Assembly (NCBI RefSeq): GCF_900129775.1 | Contig: NZ_FQWV01000001.1 | Location: 393,780-457,779 of the forward strand | DNA length: 64,000 bases | Direction: 5' to 3' | Source: Halobaculum gomorrense | GTDB taxonomy: Archaea > Halobacteriota > Halobacteria > Halobacteriales > Haloferacaceae | Shown: in pieces, positions 2,194 through 9,355 of the stretch | Layout: each line of letters begins with the position of its first letter | Position numbering within the stretch: position 1 is the first letter of the stretch | Notes under the pieces: generated by a model | Databases searched by the model: none | Told to the model about the DNA's origin: nothing | What the model saw: only the letters and a program-made list of their open reading frames with translations | Translations under genes and position numbers: made by a program

Positions 2194-3399
2194 TTACTCC
2201 TCGCGCAAGAATGCCTCGGCGCCGTGGCGATCGACCGCCGCGAGCAGTCCCTCGCGCTGACGCTCCAACTCCGGCGTCGTCTCGGCGTACACGTCCGCGA
2301 ACATGTCGGCGGGGTCGGCGTCGAAGCGTTCGGCGGCGTCGATGACCTCGGCGACCCGTTCGTCGGCCTCCTCGCGGACCGACTCGATCACGTCGTCGTC
2401 GGCGATGCCCTCGCGCCGGAGGAACGCCTCCATGCGGGGGATCGGGTCCCACGGACGCCAGGCGTCGCCCTCGTCGTCGTCGCGGTAGACGCTCGGGTCA
2501 TCGGCGGTCGTGTGGGCGCCGAAGCGGTACTCGACGGTCTCGATGAGCGTCGGCCGGTGGTCGTAGCCGCTGGCGTCGTCCGCGCCAGCGCCGTCGTCCG
2601 CCCGGGTGCCGTCCGCCCCGTCGCGGGTGTCGTCGCCCCTCGCTTTTCCGGCCGCTTCCGCGACGACGGCGTATACGGCGAGGGGGTCCATCCCGTCGAC
2701 GCGAACGCCCTCGAAGCCGTACGCCTCGGCTTTCGCCGCCAGCGTCGGGCTCGCCGTCTGATCCTCCCGCGGGATCGAGATGGCCCACTGGTTGTTGTGA
2801 CAGACGAACACGCCCGGCACGTCGAACACGCCAGCGAAGTTCATCGCCTCGTGGAAGTCGCCCTCCGAGGTCGCGCCGTCGCCGAAGTGGGCGCACGCGA
2901 CGCGGTCGTTCTCGCGGTAGTCGAACGCCATCGCCGCGCCGACGGCGTGCGGGAGGTGCGCGCCGATCCCGATGTTCAGCGGGAACACGTCGATATCGGC
3001 CAGCCCGGCGGTGCCGGACTCGTGGCCCATCCAGTACGCGAGGTACTCCGCGGGGAAGCCGCGGACGATCACGGCGCCGTGCTCGCGGTACTGGTAGAAG
3101 ACCGGATCGTCGTCGCGGAGCGCGTGGGTCGCGGCGACCGAACTCGCCTCCTGCCCCTCGATGGCCGCGTAGGTGCCGATCCGGCCCTGTCGCTGGAGGC
3201 TGATCGCGCGTTCGTCGAACCGTCGCGCGGTCACCATGTCGCGGTAGATGTCCACCAGGGTCTCATCCGCGAGGTCCGGCACCTGCCCGACGACCTCGCC
3301 GTCGGGACCCAGGACGCGGTACACGTCGCCCATCGGGTCGGGCGGACCGCCGGCGTCCGTCTCCCCATCCGCTCCGGGTTCCGCGTCGGCGTCGCTCAT
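2194..3399 (-). CDS. Thiamine pyrophosphate-dependent 2-oxoacid dehydrogenase E1 component, alpha subunit
   Basis: 401 residues. The TPP/Mg motif begins at GDGATSEGD (173-181) and ends with NN at 202-203, the classical GDG-X(26-30)-NN of E1-alpha. The protein matches pyruvate or branched-chain dehydrogenase E1-alpha (pdhA/bkdA type) over its length. Residues about 254-279 are a haloarchaeal low-complexity insertion rich in Gly, Asp and Ala. No E1-beta, E2 or E3 gene lies nearby: the neighbours are a K+ channel and an alcohol dehydrogenase. The subunit must therefore pair with a beta subunit encoded elsewhere, or be a stand-alone paralogue. Haloarchaea oxidise pyruvate mainly through ferredoxin oxidoreductases, so the substrate is probably a branched-chain or unusual 2-oxoacid (inference). 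Confidence 0.85.
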   Translation of the reverse strand: MSDADAEPGADGETDAGGPPDPMGDVYRVLGPDGEVVGQVPDLADETLVDIYRDMVTARRFDERAISLQRQGRIGTYAAIEGQEASSVAATHALRDDDPVFYQYREHGAVIVRGFPAEYLAYWMGHESGTAGLADIDVFPLNIGIGAHLPHAVGAAMAFDYRENDRVACAHFGDGATSEGDFHEAMNFAGVFDVPGVFVCHNNQWAISIPREDQTASPTLAAKAEAYGFEGVRVDGMDPLAVYAVVAEAAGKARGDDTRDGADGTRADDGAGADDASGYDHRPTLIETVEYRFGAHTTADDPSVYRDDDEGDAWRPWDPIPRMEAFLRREGIADDDVIESVREEADERVAEVIDAAERFDADPADMFADVYAETTPELERQREGLLAAVDRHGAEAFLREE

Positions 3400-3554: not shown

Positions 3555-4595
3555 TCAGGGAGTGATGACCGCCCGCCCCTCGATCTCGCCGTGTTCGAGT
3601 TGCTCGGCGACGGTGTTGATTTCCCCGAGCGGGTAGCGGCTGGTGCGCAACTCGACCTCCCCGCGGTCGACGAGCGCGACGAGCTCTTGGAGTTCGGTGT
3701 AGCGCCCGACGAGCGTCCCCTTGTAGCTGAACTCGCCGTCGACGAGCGACTGGGCCGGCTCGTGGATGTGACCTCCGTAGCCGATCACGTGGTGGTCGCC
3801 GCCGGCGGCGACGATGTCGGGCGCCAGCGCCGTGGTCTGGTCGGCGCCGACGAAATCGAGCACTTGGCGTGCGCCCACGTCGTCGGTGAGGTCGGCGATC
3901 ACGCTCGCCACGTCCTCCGTCGAGGGGTCAACCGTGTGGCGAGCGCCGAGATCTGCGGCCAGGTCGCGTGCCGACTCCTTCAGGTCGAGCGCGACGATGT
4001 CGGCCGCGCTCATCGCGTCGAGACACTGGAGGCCGATGTGTCCGAGCCCGCCGACGCCGATGACGACCGCGGTGTCGCCCGGATTCAGCTCGCGAACCGC
4101 CTTCTTCGTCGCGTGGTACGCCGTGATCCCGGCGTCCGCGTGGGGCGCGATATCCGTGGTGTCTACGTCCCCCGGAAGCGGGATCACCGCGCGCTCGTTC
4201 GTGTGGAGGAACTCCGCGAAGCCGCCGTCGTGGGTGAGCCCGGGGAAGCGGACGTTCTCGCAGTACATGTCCTCTCCCTGCCGACACGGCCGACAGGTGC
4301 CGCACGTCATCACCGGGTGGCAGATGACGCTGTCGCCCACGTCGACCGTGTTCACCTCCGCGCCGACCTCGACGACGGTCCCCGCGTTCTCGTGGCCCAG
4401 CGTCAGCGGAAGCTCCTGTGGCACGTACTCCTGCCACATCCCCTCGATCACGTGGTTGTCCGTCTGACACCAGCCGGCGCCCTCGATCTCGACGATCACG
4501 TCGTCGGACGCCTCGGCGGTCGGTCTGTCCACGTCGTCGATGCTGAGGGCGTTCGCCATGTCGTCGGTGTACTCGTGGAGTCTGGCTGCTTGCAT
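3555..4595 (-). CDS. Zinc-dependent NAD(P) alcohol dehydrogenase (MDR family)
   Basis: 346 residues from the ATG at 4595. The frame stays open upstream, but that part overlaps the divergent hydrolase and is non-coding. Catalytic zinc ligands are C43 (GWCQTD) and H68-E69 (LGHEN). The structural zinc lobe has Cys 98, 101, 104 and 112. The Rossmann fold begins at GVGGLG (180-185). The segment HADAGITAYHATKKAVREL resembles the ADHs encoded beside propane/acetone monooxygenases in actinobacteria. It is expected to oxidise a secondary or primary alcohol to a ketone or aldehyde with NAD(P)+. It is divergent from the hydrolase at 4764. A clear TATA box sits about 38 nt before the ATG. Confidence 0.87.
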   Translation of the reverse strand: MQAARLHEYTDDMANALSIDDVDRPTAEASDDVIVEIEGAGWCQTDNHVIEGMWQEYVPQELPLTLGHENAGTVVEVGAEVNTVDVGDSVICHPVMTCGTCRPCRQGEDMYCENVRFPGLTHDGGFAEFLHTNERAVIPLPGDVDTTDIAPHADAGITAYHATKKAVRELNPGDTAVVIGVGGLGHIGLQCLDAMSAADIVALDLKESARDLAADLGARHTVDPSTEDVASVIADLTDDVGARQVLDFVGADQTTALAPDIVAAGGDHHVIGYGGHIHEPAQSLVDGEFSYKGTLVGRYTELQELVALVDRGEVELRTSRYPLGEINTVAEQLEHGEIEGRAVITP

Positions 4596-4628
4596 TCTGT
4601 TAGCACCTGCCACTGATTCGATAGCTGA

Positions 4629-4638
4629 GAATAAAAAG
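4629..4638 (-). promoter_or_regulatory. TATA box for the alcohol dehydrogenase gene
   Basis: On the minus strand the sequence CTTTTTATTC is a strong AT-rich box in otherwise GC-rich DNA. It lies 34-43 nt upstream of the ADH start, implying a short leader of about 10 nt. The opposite-strand hydrolase has a weaker box (TGATACGG) near 4731. Confidence 0.55.
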
Positions 4639-4763
4639 CCACACGGTCGTACGAACGGCCTCCGGGTCGACCGTCGCGACCCTGGGGATGACGGCGAGTT
4701 GGCCGTCCGCGGCGCACAGGCCGAACAGACTGATACGGATGCTCGCCGACGTACTACGTTGCG

Positions 4764-5606
4764 ATGACGAGCTACGACGAGTGGACGGCGGCGCAGGACA
4801 GCACGACGGTACCCGTGGACGACCACGACCTCGAGATCGCCTACCGTGACGAGGGCGAGGGCGACCCGGTGGTGTTCCTCCACGGCATCCCGACGAACTC
4901 CTATCTGTTTAGACGCCAGTTCGAGGCCGTTGCGGCCGATCGACGGGCGATCGCGCCCGACATGGTGGGGTACGGCACCTCCGCGATGCACGACGGCTTC
5001 GATCGGTCGATCCGCGCCCAGGAGGCGGCGGTCCGCGGCCTGATCGACGACCTTGATCTGGGGACGGTCGATTTCGTCGGCCACGACCTCGGGGGCGGTG
5101 TCGGCCTCCGCCTCGCGGCGCGCACGCCCGACGCGGTTGACCGGTTGGTGCTGTCGAACTCGGTCGCATACGACTCGTGGCCGATCCAGATCATCACCGA
5201 CCTGGGACTGCCGGAGTCGGCCCGCGAGAACAGCGTCGAGGACGTCCAGGGGATGCTCGACGGCCTCTTCCGGGACACGCTGTACGGCGGCGTCGACGAC
5301 GCGTTCGTGGAGGCGATGAAGGCGCCGTGGGCCTCCGAGGAGGGCGTCACCTCGCTCGTGCGCAACGCGAGCGGGACGAACACCAGCCACACTACCGAGG
5401 TCGACCCCGGGGACGTGACGGCGGACACGCTGCTGCTGTGGGGGATCGAAGACGAGTTCCAGCCCGTTCGGTGGGCCGAGCGGCTGGAGCGTGACATCGA
5501 CTCGTGTGAACTCGTGCGTCTCGAAGAGGCGAATCACTGGGTGCCCGAGGACCGCGGCGGGACGTTCCGCAAGCACCTGACGGAGTTCCTGCTCGGGGGC
5601 GACTGA
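4764..5606 (+). CDS. Alpha/beta-hydrolase, haloalkane dehalogenase/epoxide hydrolase-like
   Basis: 280 residues. Oxyanion region HGIPTN begins at H40. The nucleophile elbow is GHDLGG with Asp108, not Ser, which places it with haloalkane dehalogenases and soluble epoxide hydrolases rather than esterases. The catalytic acid is probably D230 (GIEDEF) and the base H258 (ANHW). A cap domain occupies about residues 130-210. It may hydrolyse a carbon-halogen bond, an epoxide or an activated ester; the sequence does not decide. It lies head-to-head with the ADH and is followed 170 nt later by an amidohydrolase, suggesting a shared catabolic role. Confidence 0.82.
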   Translation: MTSYDEWTAAQDSTTVPVDDHDLEIAYRDEGEGDPVVFLHGIPTNSYLFRRQFEAVAADRRAIAPDMVGYGTSAMHDGFDRSIRAQEAAVRGLIDDLDLGTVDFVGHDLGGGVGLRLAARTPDAVDRLVLSNSVAYDSWPIQIITDLGLPESARENSVEDVQGMLDGLFRDTLYGGVDDAFVEAMKAPWASEEGVTSLVRNASGTNTSHTTEVDPGDVTADTLLLWGIEDEFQPVRWAERLERDIDSCELVRLEEANHWVPEDRGGTFRKHLTEFLLGGD

Positions 5607-5776
5607 CGCGGCAGCGGCCTCGTCGCAATCCGTCTCCGGGGCGGAGGGTCCTCGGAGTGGGCGATCCCGCTAGCCCGGACCGAGTGGGCCGGTCCGGGCT
5701 CGTTCGGAGACGGTTGTGCGAGGCCCGGCAGAACCATGCAAACAATCATGTGGGATGGCAACAATCGACACTACAC

Positions 5777-6853
5777 ATGTACGTCACTGACGACGGCGAG
5801 GAGATTTTTGTGATCGACTCGCACCTGCACCTGTGGGACGCGAGCGAGGAGAACATCACCCACGAGGGAGGCGAGCAGTTCATCCAGTGCTTCTACGACT
5901 ACCACACCGGATTCACGCCCGAGGAGAAACAGTGGAGCCTCGACGAGTACCGGCAGTACGGCGCCGACCGGATGGCTGACGACCTGTTCGGTAACGCGGC
6001 CGTCGACATGGGGATCTTCCAGCCGACGTACCTGAACGACTTCTACGCGGAGGGCTTCAACACCATCGGTGACAACGCCGAGTTGGCCGAGCGGTACCCC
6101 GAGCGGTTCGTGCTCAACGGCCGGTTCGACCCGCGCGACGGCGAGGCGGGGATGCGGGAGCTGGAGCGACAAAAAGAGGAGTACGACATTCAGGGCGTGA
6201 AGCTGTACACCGCGGAGTGGAACGGCGACTCGAAGGGGTGGCGGCTGGACAGCGAGGAGTCGTTCGAGTTCCTAGAGAAGTGCTCGGAGCTGGGTATCGA
6301 GAACATCCACCCGCACAAGGGGCCCACGATTCGGCCACTGAACCGCGACGCGTTCGACGTGGCCGACGTGGACGACGCGGCCACCTCCTTCCCGGAGCTG
6401 AACTTCGTCGTCGAGCACGTCGGGCTCCCCCGGCTCGACGACTTCTGTTGGATCGCCGCCCAGGAGCCGAACGTCTACGGCGGGCTCGCGGTCGCCGCGC
6501 CGCTGGCGGTCCACCGGCCGCGCAAGTTCGGCGAGATCATGGGCGAACTCCTGTTCTGGCTGGGCGAGGACCGCCTGCTGTTCGGCTCTGACTACGCCCT
6601 GTGGAACCCCGACTGGCTCGTCGAGACGTTCATGGAGGCGGAACTCACCGACGAGCAACAGGAGGAGTACGGCGTCGACTTCGGACTCGAAACGAAGCGG
6701 AAGATCCTCGGCGAGAACGCCGCCGAACTGTACGATATCGATATCGAGGCGAAGAAAGAACAGTTCAGGTCGGACGACGTGACGGAGGACTTCGGCCTGG
6801 CAGACCACTACGCGGACGCCGCCGGAACGGGCCCCGCGCCCGCGGACGACTGA
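5777..6853 (+). CDS. Amidohydrolase (amidohydrolase_2/ACMSD-like family) of the monooxygenase-accessory type
   Basis: 358 residues starting MYVTDDGEE; an upstream in-frame ATG (5657) gives a 40-residue extension of shadow character. Metal ligands are visible: HxH at H16 and H18, K142 in VKLYTAEW, the H178/H180 region (HPHKG), H214 in VEHVG, and D272 in GSDY. The sequence closely recalls the amidohydrolase encoded with mycobacterial/rhodococcal propane and acetone diiron monooxygenases (shared signatures VDSHxHxWDAS, GVKLYTAEW, NIHxHKGPTI, VEHVGLPR, EPNVYxGLAV). Its role in those operons is not well defined. The stop overlaps the next start (TGATG), so the two genes are translationally coupled. 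Confidence 0.85.
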   Translation: MYVTDDGEEIFVIDSHLHLWDASEENITHEGGEQFIQCFYDYHTGFTPEEKQWSLDEYRQYGADRMADDLFGNAAVDMGIFQPTYLNDFYAEGFNTIGDNAELAERYPERFVLNGRFDPRDGEAGMRELERQKEEYDIQGVKLYTAEWNGDSKGWRLDSEESFEFLEKCSELGIENIHPHKGPTIRPLNRDAFDVADVDDAATSFPELNFVVEHVGLPRLDDFCWIAAQEPNVYGGLAVAAPLAVHRPRKFGEIMGELLFWLGEDRLLFGSDYALWNPDWLVETFMEAELTDEQQEEYGVDFGLETKRKILGENAAELYDIDIEAKKEQFRSDDVTEDFGLADHYADAAGTGPAPADD

Positions 6854-7734
6854 TGTCCTCGGAGCCGACACCGGCCGACGCGGCGTCGACCGACGCCGTG
6901 ACGACGCCCGGCGCGGTCCGGGAGCGCCTCGACCGCGTCACCGATCCGGAGCTGGACACGTCGATCGTCGAACTGGACTACGTCGAGGAGATCGAGATCG
7001 AGGCCGCCGCCGCCGCCGACGCGGGCGACGACGCCGGCGACGAGGTGTTCGTCGCGTTCACGCTCCCGACCGCCTGGTGCTCGCCGGCGTTCGCGTGGAT
7101 GATGGCCGTCGACGCCCGTGAGGCCGTCGAGTCGCTGCCGACGGTCGCTCGCGCGGAGATCGAACTTCGCGACCACATGCACGAACGGGAGATCACCCGC
7201 GGCGTCAACGAGCGGCTTCCCTTCGAGGAGGCGTTCTCCGACGCCGACGGCGGGGTCGAATCGGTCAGGCTGGAACTCGACCGCAAGGCCCGCACCGCCC
7301 GCCAGCACGACGCCACCGGCGCCCTGCTGGACGCGGGGCTGACCCGCGAACAGGTCGCCGAGGTGTCCCGGTCCGATCTGGAGTTCGCGGACGCGCCCGA
7401 GGGCCGGGTCCGCGTGTGGGTCCGCGACGGCGCGGTCGCGGTCGAGGCGGACGCCGAGCCCGTCGAGCGCTACCTGGAGAAGGCCGACGCGACCGGCGTG
7501 CTCGACGACGAGCAGTCCGAGCTGTTCCGGACGCCCGAAGAAGAGCCGTTCGACGGCGACGAGGTGGAGCTCGTCCGCCGGCGGACCCGGCTCGCGGGGG
7601 TGAACATGGGCGGGCAGGGCACCGTCTGCGACGCGCTCAACGAGTCGCGCCACGCCGAGGACCGCCCGCCGCTGTCGACGCGCGAGGGCGCCCCGGTCGC
7701 CCCCGACAAGGAGGACCGCGCGGACGCCGACTGA
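6853..7734 (+). CDS. MIP18/DUF59-family iron-sulfur assembly-like protein
   Basis: 293 residues; ATG overlaps the amidohydrolase stop by one base. The DUF59 core contains DPELD (31-35) and a conserved Cys76 in LPTAWCSPAF. A long C-terminal extension follows, with a second conserved-looking Cys259 in GGQGTVCDAL. Simple SufT/MIP18 proteins are about 100 residues, so this is the long version found next to amidohydrolase genes in alkane/ketone monooxygenase operons. There it is thought to help mature a metal centre (inference). The gene ends directly against an IS200/IS605-type element, which begins on the base after the TGA, so the original downstream neighbour may have been displaced. Confidence 0.8.
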   Translation: MSSEPTPADAASTDAVTTPGAVRERLDRVTDPELDTSIVELDYVEEIEIEAAAAADAGDDAGDEVFVAFTLPTAWCSPAFAWMMAVDAREAVESLPTVARAEIELRDHMHEREITRGVNERLPFEEAFSDADGGVESVRLELDRKARTARQHDATGALLDAGLTREQVAEVSRSDLEFADAPEGRVRVWVRDGAVAVEADAEPVERYLEKADATGVLDDEQSELFRTPEEEPFDGDEVELVRRRTRLAGVNMGGQGTVCDALNESRHAEDRPPLSTREGAPVAPDKEDRADAD

Positions 7735-7850
7735 TTGACATCCTCCCACCCCTGAAGGAGTGGGATTCCTCCGGTGGGGATGTTGGCTATGCCGTACCCA
7801 CGGAGGCAAGTTTCCCGTCGCCGGTACTCTGGTTTGTGCGCTCCTCGTTG
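7735..7850 (-). ncRNA. Candidate omega (re)RNA scaffold at the element right end
   Basis: TnpB proteins use an RNA that overlaps the 3' end of tnpB, runs to the element right end and takes its guide from the flanking DNA. Here the corresponding region includes the tnpB stop at 7787 and the conserved hairpin at 7745-7764, ending GGATGTCAA at 7735. The guide would then come from the 3' end of the DUF59 gene (below 7735). This is inference from family biology; the 5' end is arbitrary and expression is unknown. Confidence 0.35.
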
Positions 7851-9103
7851 GGACTTGCCCTCTCGGGAGAGTGTGGTATCTCCGACCAGTTGTGGTTGTC
7901 CCACGTGAGGCGCACGGGCCGTGCCATCGACCCGGCTTCCAGATTCGTGCCAGCCTGTCGTTCGAGGAACACCCGCGACGCGTCGAGATCGGCGTGGCCC
8001 TCGTAGCCACACGAACACCGAAACACGTCGCCGTCCCGGTCTGTCTCGTCGCGCTCGCCACACACAGGGCACTCCGCCGTCGTGTACGCTTCCGACTCGA
8101 CTTCGACCGCGATGCCGTACTCCTCGGCGGTCGTCGCAAGCCGGTCGATGAACGAGCGATACGCCCAGAACTGGTGCGTCTTCTCGTTCACCTCTGCCGA
8201 CCAGTGTGCCGACAAGACATCGGTGAGGTTGCCCACATACACGGTGGAAACGCCCTCGTCGTACAGCCGTTCTATCAGGTCGCGCACGAGTGCGTCCTGT
8301 GCGTGGTCGCGTCGTCGCGTCCGCTTGCGGTACAGGCGTCGAATCCGGCGACTGCTGTACCGGCCCTCGCGGAGTTTGGACTGCAGGCGGGAAATCTCCT
8401 CGGTGGTTTCGCGGAAGCGGGCGAACAGGTCGCGGCCCTCGTAGAGGTACTGCTGGCCGGTCGTGGTGGTACAGGCGACGAGGTTGTTTGCGCCGACATC
8501 CAAGGCAGCCGATTCCTCGGCTAGTGGTGAATCCCGTCGAGAATCAAGCACGGTGACGGGTTGAATGGCCCTGAACGTGTCGCTCACCTCGTCGTAGTAC
8601 AGTTCCAACCGGCCCTGTTCGCCCTTCCATTTGGGGTCGCCAGCGACTTCGAGGCGCAGGCGGTCGTGGTAGCCAAGCCCGTACTCGTCTTTGAGGTCTT
8701 GGCCGACCGGGATTTCGAGACGACTCCGCTCGCCGGTTTCGAGGGTGTACTGGTCGTTGCGGATGTACGTCCGCAACTCCCGACCCTCGTCTTCGTTGCC
8801 CCAGTAGTCGGGCGGGGCGGTGTCCTCGCCATCCTCGCGGGCGGCGAAAAACGACCGCCACGCCTCGCTGTTCTTGCGGATGACTTGTTGGGCGGTGGCG
8901 GAGCCGAGGACGCCAACGTACTGCTTGCGGTAGTCGGCGGTATCCCACACGGATTCGCCGTCGAAGAAGTTCTGGCGACGTTCGTAGGTGAGTTCGTTTC
9001 AGAGGCTGGCGGAGGCGTCCAACAGGTCGCGGAGCAGTTGCTCGTCCTGCGTGGAGAGCGGGCGCACCGCGAACGCATTGGTTCGCATCACGACAACAGA
9101 CAT
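7787..9103 (-). pseudogene. tnpB: tnpB (RNA-guided nuclease family), interrupted by an in-frame TGA at codon 35
   Basis: Reading from the ATG at 9103, codons 1-34 give MSVVVMRTNAFAVRPLS... then TGA at 8999-9001, where related haloarchaeal TnpBs have Trp ([12 protein letters not shown]). The frame is intact from there to the TAG at 7787, 438 sense codons if repaired. RuvC-I Asp (AALDVGANN) is codon 202 and RuvC-III Asp (GHADLDAS) is codon 372. The zinc finger is CPVC...CSC. At the RuvC-II position ([10 protein letters not shown], codon 291) Gly replaces the usual Glu, which I recall as typical of this haloarchaeal subgroup. Restart at the ATG at 8950 would yield 387 residues lacking the N-terminal wedge region. 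Confidence 0.82.
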
Positions 9104-9141
9104 TTGTAGTCCTACGTCTAAATGTCTTTTGGACACAGGCG

Positions 9142-9285
9142 ATGAGACCGAACATCGACATCTCGCACACCCTGAACGGGCGCGTGAAGGACTACGCCGA
9201 ACAACAGGATGTGAGCCTCGAAGAAGCGTATCGGGAGATTATCGAAGCGGGGTTGGAGGCGGTGGAACATCCAGACGAGCCGTAG
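9142..9285 (+). CDS. Small ribbon-helix-helix-like protein of the IS element
   Basis: 47 residues, MRPNIDISHTLNGRVKDYAE..., ending EHPDEP. The short beta-strand followed by two amphipathic helices (about 11-21 and 25-42) fits a MetJ/Arc-type DNA-binding fold. It is transcribed away from tnpB with only 38 nt between the two starts, so both promoters overlap and it may repress tnpB (inference). I recall similar small genes next to haloarchaeal IS1341-type tnpB genes. It lies wholly inside the element. Confidence 0.6.
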   Translation: MRPNIDISHTLNGRVKDYAEQQDVSLEEAYREIIEAGLEAVEHPDEP

Positions 9286-9318
9286 CGCGTGGACTGCCGG
9301 GCTATGCTGTCGCTTACA

Positions 9319-9338
9319 CCCACCCCTGAAGGGGTGGG
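9319..9338. repeat. Left-end hairpin of the IS element
   Basis: Perfect 8-bp stem CCCACCCC/GGGGTGGG with loop TGAA. It is nearly identical to the right-end hairpin at 7745-7764, whose stem has one G:T pair. Such subterminal hairpins are recognised by Y1 transposases in the IS200/IS605 family. Confidence 0.75.
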
Positions 9339-9355
9339 CTTCCGCTCGCTACGTA

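Follow-up and report, generated by a model that had tools for sequence, protein, structure and literature searches.

A class-wide haloarchaeal alcohol dehydrogenase–amidohydrolase–DUF59 gene module that is homologous to propane monooxygenase accessory genes and occurs without a diiron monooxygenase

The window analyzed here is a 64 kb stretch within a 703 kb contig of the Halobaculum gomorrense genome (3.2 Mb, 99.9% complete). It contains a compact gene module that encodes a zinc-dependent medium-chain alcohol dehydrogenase (ADH), an amidohydrolase (AMI) and a long DUF59 protein with a C-terminal extension (Table 1). The ADH gene is divergent to the AMI and DUF59 genes, and the stop codon of AMI overlaps the start codon of DUF59 as TGATG at 6851-6855. 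A first-pass annotation of the window had listed these three genes, an alpha/beta hydrolase gene and the TGATG overlap; Pfam and the sequence agreed with this reading of all four genes, and the overlap is present as described. The trio is known from bacterial monooxygenase clusters. In haloarchaea it takes a monooxygenase-free, class-wide form, of which no description was found in the literature searched.

Table 1 Features of the module and its surroundings in the window.
Feature	Position	Strand	Assignment or remark
Zinc-dependent medium-chain ADH, core gene 1	3555-4595	-	Pfam ADH_N, ADH_zinc_N
ADH-side part of the probable divergent promoter region	4596-4669		Alignable to the nearest relatives L149/L151; matching AMI-side part at ~5740-5776
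Alpha/beta hydrolase (haloalkane dehalogenase / epoxide hydrolase type), optional accessory	4764-5606	+	Pfam Abhydrolase_1
AMI, Amidohydrolase_2 family, core gene 2	5777-6853	+	Pfam Amidohydro_2, E 4e-49; start set at 5777 because homologues start there
Long DUF59 (MIP18/CIAO2-type) protein with C-terminal extension, core gene 3	6853-7734	+	PF01883, E 3e-11, 43.7 bits
IS200/IS605-type element with TnpB gene (7787-8950), outside the module	7736-9354	-	Pfam OrfB_IS605, NCBIfam guided_TnpB
2-oxoacid dehydrogenase E1-alpha, directly downstream of ADH, outside the module	2194-3399	-	Pfam E1_dh

The three core proteins are homologous to the accessory proteins of the Prm/Mim monooxygenase clusters, as had been proposed from the sequence. 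At most loci the identities to the cluster counterparts are 55-59% for AMI, 45-49% for ADH and 26-34% for DUF59. The corresponding values for the Caballeronia proteins are 59%, 48% and 32-33%, and the AMI of an Eremiobacterota locus (L090) is more distant (45%). Annotated plasmid records retrieved by the AMI search carry genes for hydroxylase alpha, reductase, hydroxylase beta, MmoB/DmpM, amidohydrolase, DUF59 and GroEL together with ADH. These records come from Caballeronia, Aminobacter, Ponticoccus, Paracoccus, Gemmobacter and Bradyrhizobium; further clusters of the kind were recognized from their sequence in Rhodococcus and Rhizobium. The same layout appears in published maps of Gordonia, Rhodococcus and Mycobacterium (PMC4428276, PMC6849523). 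The prmABCD/mimABCD clusters of these actinobacteria and their proteobacterial counterparts thus share with the Halobaculum locus the same ADH, amidohydrolase and long DUF59 subfamilies as well as the order AMI-DUF59, and their long DUF59 protein is annotated as “metal-sulfur cluster biosynthetic enzyme”. Unlike those clusters, the Halobaculum locus lacks genes for a hydroxylase, a reductase, a coupling protein and a GroEL-like protein, its genome lacks a hydroxylase, and the haloarchaeal AMI and ADH proteins fall in clades of their own. Published operon maps of propane/acetone monooxygenases give the amidohydrolase and DUF59 genes without an assigned function, and we found no paper that treats propane monooxygenase, amidohydrolase and DUF59 together.

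The absence of Prm hydroxylase, reductase, coupling and GroEL-like genes from the window, which the first-pass annotation had pointed out, was borne out, and no match to PrmB (reductase), PrmD (coupling protein) or GroEL-like proteins was found in the window or in the haloarchaeal loci. The PF02332 profile, which covers the alpha and beta subunits of the diiron hydroxylase, was searched in the H. gomorrense genome, 40 relatives and 391 genomes across the haloarchaeal class. The same search matched the known Prm/Mim clusters, which served as a positive control. A whole-genome search for a PrmA/MimA-type hydroxylase had been suggested with the first annotation; it gave no match in the H. gomorrense genome, and with the control working, the idea of a diiron monooxygenase elsewhere in this genome was rejected. 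The coupling-protein profile PF02406 also gave no match in this genome, in a search that had no working positive control. At a cut-off of E ≤ 1e-130, an AMI orthologue is present in 123 of the 391 haloarchaeal genomes and PF02332 in four, with no overlap. The mutual exclusion of the two is not significant (Fisher p 0.31), the four hydroxylase genomes being too few. The point that counts is rather that every one of the 123 AMI carriers is free of PF02332. Judged from the genome sequences, the module very probably has no diiron monooxygenase as a partner.

The module is strongly conserved in haloarchaea. DUF59 adjoins AMI in 76 of 76 haloarchaeal AMI loci, ADH lies ≤4 kb from AMI in 69 of them (divergent in 67), and the layout is common to tens of genera. 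The remaining seven AMI-DUF59 pairs have no nearby ADH; two of these start at a contig end. The intergenic regions between divergent ADH and AMI genes at 61 other loci contain recurring motifs, some of them TATA-like, and one motif, AAACGTTC, is present in 25 of the 61. The region between ADH and AMI in the window (4596-4669 and 5740-5776) is probably a two-way promoter. In the AMI tree, the haloarchaeal proteins form one clade (100/100), and among the bacterial AMIs those with a monooxygenase and those without are intermixed, with three changes each. The haloarchaeal ADHs likewise group in a single clade (96/96), adjacent to the bacterial cluster ADHs. Long branches were flagged (L139, L090 and the outgroups) and the deep order is unsure, and the trees are therefore used for two points: haloarchaea are one group, and the monooxygenase-free state extends beyond them. 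The flagged haloarchaeal locus L139 (G322:C2, 6722-11089) carries a diverged trio in one direction (AMI 59%, ADH 54%, DUF59 43%), with a catechol 2,3-dioxygenase-like gene downstream. An independent role of the genes in archaea, one of the options raised by the first-pass annotation, fits an intact module conserved in 76 haloarchaeal loci without a diiron hydroxylase. Because the module occurs here class-wide without a monooxygenase, the role of AMI and DUF59 can be separated from hydroxylase assembly, and haloarchaea are hosts in which this role is testable by deletion.

AMI-DUF59 pairs also occur outside monooxygenase clusters in bacteria. On the megaplasmid of Thermomicrobium roseum DSM 5159, TRD_RS11610-11625 encode an IclR regulator, DUF59, AMI and ADH, with no Prm genes. 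Like the haloarchaeal module, this is a compact set of three genes from these subfamilies (AMI 57% identical); it differs in that the genes are co-directional, DUF59 precedes AMI and the IclR regulator is present. Other loci without Prm genes include those of Peribacillus (AMI, DUF59, PfpI), Rhizobium N324 (AMI, DUF59, lactoylglutathione lyase) and a Bauldia metagenome-assembled genome (acetoacetate-CoA ligase, SDR, AMI, DUF59), and a GlcD-like oxidase is another neighbor of monooxygenase-free bacterial AMI-DUF59 pairs; for plasmid records and metagenome-assembled genomes, hydroxylase absence refers to the sequence searched. Distant haloarchaeal AMI paralogues (L133-L138, L146, L147; 27-35% identity) are directly followed by a DUF59-like protein, recognized by motif only in the unannotated loci. 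An example is Natrinema sp. SYSU A 869 (K6I40_RS03470/03475), in which an amidohydrolase gene is followed at once by one for a DUF59-family protein, as in the window. Pairs of this type differ from the window pair in two respects. H16 and D272 are missing from the metal site of the paralogues, so that their chemistry probably differs from that of the window AMI, and the DUF59 partner is short with DPC replacing DPE. In two annotated records, their neighbors are genes for acyl-CoA synthetase, thiolase, acyl-CoA dehydrogenase and aldehyde dehydrogenase. These distributions suggest that AMI and DUF59 are an older pairing of an enzyme with a partner protein. The two genes do not serve as markers of monooxygenase clusters, since both the bacterial loci and the distant paralogues have the pair without a monooxygenase, and they should not be used to predict alkane or acetone monooxygenation in archaea.

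The AMI model predicted by AlphaFold is a confident one, with a pLDDT (predicted local distance difference test) of 89.7. The best Foldseek match was an uncharacterized protein (3irs), followed by 5-carboxyvanillate and dihydroxybenzoate decarboxylases and LigJ, all of the ACMSD type. In sequence, phmmer gave no match to solved structures. Enzymes of the ACMSD type have the metal-ligand pattern HxH, H, H, D. AMI shares this pattern and the barrel fold with ACMSD, gamma-resorcylate and 5-carboxyvanillate decarboxylases and the LigJ hydratase at ~12-18% identity, and the Pfam match, fold and metal ligands agree in placing it in the ACMSD-type Amidohydro_2 family. H16, H18, K142, H180, H214 and D272 are conserved in the haloarchaeal, monooxygenase-linked and monooxygenase-free groups, H18 being the least strict.

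The N-terminal domain of the DUF59 protein resembles the structures of CIAO2A, CIAO2B and TM0487 (best E 1.7e-3), while the C-terminal half has no convincing structural match; phmmer against solved structures gave a match at E 0.19 only. PF01883, the conserved D31-P32-E33 (DPE) signature and the conserved C76 place the protein in the DUF59/MIP18/PaaD-SufT family, and a second conserved cysteine, C259, lies in the C-terminal half. It is not an orthologue of SufT or PaaD, scoring 22.8 bits with TIGR03406 (cut-off 202.6) and 21.5 with NF041868 (cut-off 180). The DUF59 signature and the AMI metal ligands are both kept in the monooxygenase-linked and monooxygenase-free groups.

The ADH has the catalytic residues C43 and H68 and the structural zinc ligands C98, C101, C104 and C112 of zinc ADHs, all conserved in the haloarchaeal members. 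It is 45-50% identical to the ADHs of most bacterial AMI clusters and mostly 26-34% identical to the further ADHs encoded in the H. gomorrense genome. Its nearest solved relative is Aeropyrum pernix ADH (1h2b), matched over the full length with 335 bits versus 195 for the next. The A. pernix enzyme oxidizes the secondary alcohol 2-pentanol (PMC6257473), and its substrate range may differ from that of the window ADH.

On balance, we favor the view that the trio is a free-standing catabolic module and not a monooxygenase accessory set. The conservation, intactness and pairing of the genes and the absence of a diiron monooxygenase are established at the level of sequence. The AMI fold and ligands, the DUF59 domain, the likeness of the ADH and a proteome record from Actinomycetospora favor a catalytic AMI that follows ADH in the pathway and has DUF59 as cofactor partner. 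In a study of growth of that actinobacterium on 2-hydroxyisobutyrate and acetone, the cluster amidohydrolase is listed with a 3.2% share of the proteome, close to the values for the hydroxylase subunits (PMC7176365); such an amount would suit an enzyme. In the proposed pathway, ADH would oxidize a small secondary alcohol or hydroxyketone, and AMI, as a metal-dependent hydrolase, hydratase or (de)carboxylase, would act on the oxidized product. DUF59 would be a dedicated partner of AMI that loads or repairs its metal or an Fe-S cofactor. We consider it reasonably probable that AMI is catalytic and DUF59 its partner; this assignment and the order of the steps are what we infer from the evidence above. 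The neighbors acetoacetate-CoA ligase, lactoylglutathione lyase, PfpI and GlcD-like oxidase suggest small oxo compounds, and a substrate of this class is put forward tentatively. A C3-C4 oxo compound of the acetone, acetol, methylglyoxal or acetoacetate kind is a speculative choice.

Several points weigh against this view. The small-oxo-compound neighbors were each seen once and differ from locus to locus, and we found no data on substrate, activity or expression for any haloarchaeal member. The modeled AMI fold would span decarboxylation, hydration and lactone hydrolysis, so that the reaction is not fixed by the fold. ADH may be dispensable, given the seven AMI-DUF59 pairs without ADH nearby, and the putative cofactor-partner role of DUF59 is read from family membership. 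In a bolder version, which we regard as unlikely, ADH-AMI-DUF59 would form a hitherto undescribed oxygen-independent route for small ketones or hydroxyketones in which AMI, with a metal supplied by DUF59, carries out a new carboxylation, hydration or C-C cleavage, and monooxygenase clusters would later have taken over the trio as their downstream part. If true, propane and acetone degradation has a step missing from present schemes.

The strongest competing explanation, a minority possibility in our estimate, is that AMI and DUF59 are general metalloenzyme assembly factors, with AMI as a scaffold or carrier serving the diiron hydroxylase in Prm/Mim clusters and another metalloenzyme encoded elsewhere in haloarchaea. 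Members of the SufT/PaaD/CIAO2 group of DUF59 proteins act on behalf of Fe-S and diiron enzymes, and the window protein shows a fold match to CIAO2. The link of AMI to DUF59 (76/76) is tighter than that to ADH (69/76), and the distant AMI paralogues keep a DUF59 partner even without H16 and D272. However, almost every AMI of the window subfamily, in whichever group, retains all the metal ligands, and in the acetone-metabolizing Actinomycetospora the amidohydrolase is about as abundant as the hydroxylase subunits (PMC7176365). In addition, ADH travels along in most loci, and no common client gene was found in the 10 kb flanks.

It is improbable that the trio works with a distant monooxygenase, of the diiron or another alkane or ketone type, that supplies the alcohol or ketone. 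The homology to the Prm/Mim trio is in line with such an arrangement, and in Mycobacterium sp. AT1 the amidohydrolase, a gene whose function is not known and the ADH are placed away from the monooxygenase of the same genome (PMC6849523), which equally fits the free-standing module. Thermomicrobium roseum has a diiron hydroxylase ~370 kb from the trio, the sole one on the replicon, but this enzyme belongs to a toluene-4-monooxygenase-type cluster. Action with a distant diiron monooxygenase, as first suggested for this locus, is not supported, given the lack of PF02332 in the H. gomorrense genome and in the AMI-bearing haloarchaeal genomes. The four haloarchaeal genomes that do encode a diiron hydroxylase (L124, G092:C1:2875172-2878718; L125, G235:C1:1022129-1023867; L126, G121:C7:8458-10198; L127, G361:C23:221411-223149), three of them from one genus, each have two PF02332 matches. 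These enzymes are only 24-25% identical to PrmA, the genomes have no AMI orthologue, and no AMI or DUF59 match lies beside the hydroxylase; they were rejected as partners of the module.

Still less probable is that ADH, AMI and DUF59 are functionally unconnected and stay together through inherited synteny. Flanking genes are often common within one family, as this explanation would have it, but between families the flanks change and the trio stays. When open reading frames in the 10 kb flanks were clustered, no neighbor beyond the trio was common across haloarchaeal families. At L020 and L073, ADH lies behind DUF59 instead of being divergent and is thus on the other side of AMI-DUF59, yet still adjacent, and bacterial and plasmid loci also have the three subfamilies close together.

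The insertion sequence (IS) element sits directly behind the DUF59 gene, as initially described, starting one base past its stop codon, but it interrupts nothing. In L149/L151, the positions corresponding to 7735 and 9355 of the window are contiguous, straight on from the DUF59 stop, so that the element was inserted right behind this codon and removed nothing. The nearest relatives have neither the element nor extra genes at this site, all three core genes are intact, and ADH and AMI are 91-95% and 85-94% identical to those of congeners. The position of the element had prompted the proposal that the genes are decaying leftovers of a larger monooxygenase cluster broken up by it. This proposal is rejected in view of the continuous empty site and the class-wide conservation, and we give it almost no credence.

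The alpha/beta hydrolase gene was part of the originally described gene set. The gene is indeed present, with a GHDLGG nucleophile motif, which is that of haloalkane dehalogenases and epoxide hydrolases, but it is a local insert and was rejected as a core member. The region ~4670-5740 is absent at this site in the six nearest relatives, and in L149/L151 the ADH and AMI sides are ~70-80 bp apart. Five of the eight closest haloarchaeal homologues of the hydrolase (≥70%, its own copy included) are found no more than 3 kb from an AMI module, which makes it a recurrent, optional neighbor.

On the other side of the module, the E1-alpha gene has no evident E1-beta gene beside it. It is found downstream of ADH in several Haloferacaceae loci; E1-alpha adjoins ADH in Halobaculum relatives and in several Halorubrum and Halogranum loci and is absent from most others. 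As it is limited to these lineages, it was rejected as a part of the module. In addition, 19 loci have a coding region for an Old Yellow Enzyme-type flavin oxidoreductase domain immediately downstream of ADH and in the same orientation (e.g. L065:7319-9091).

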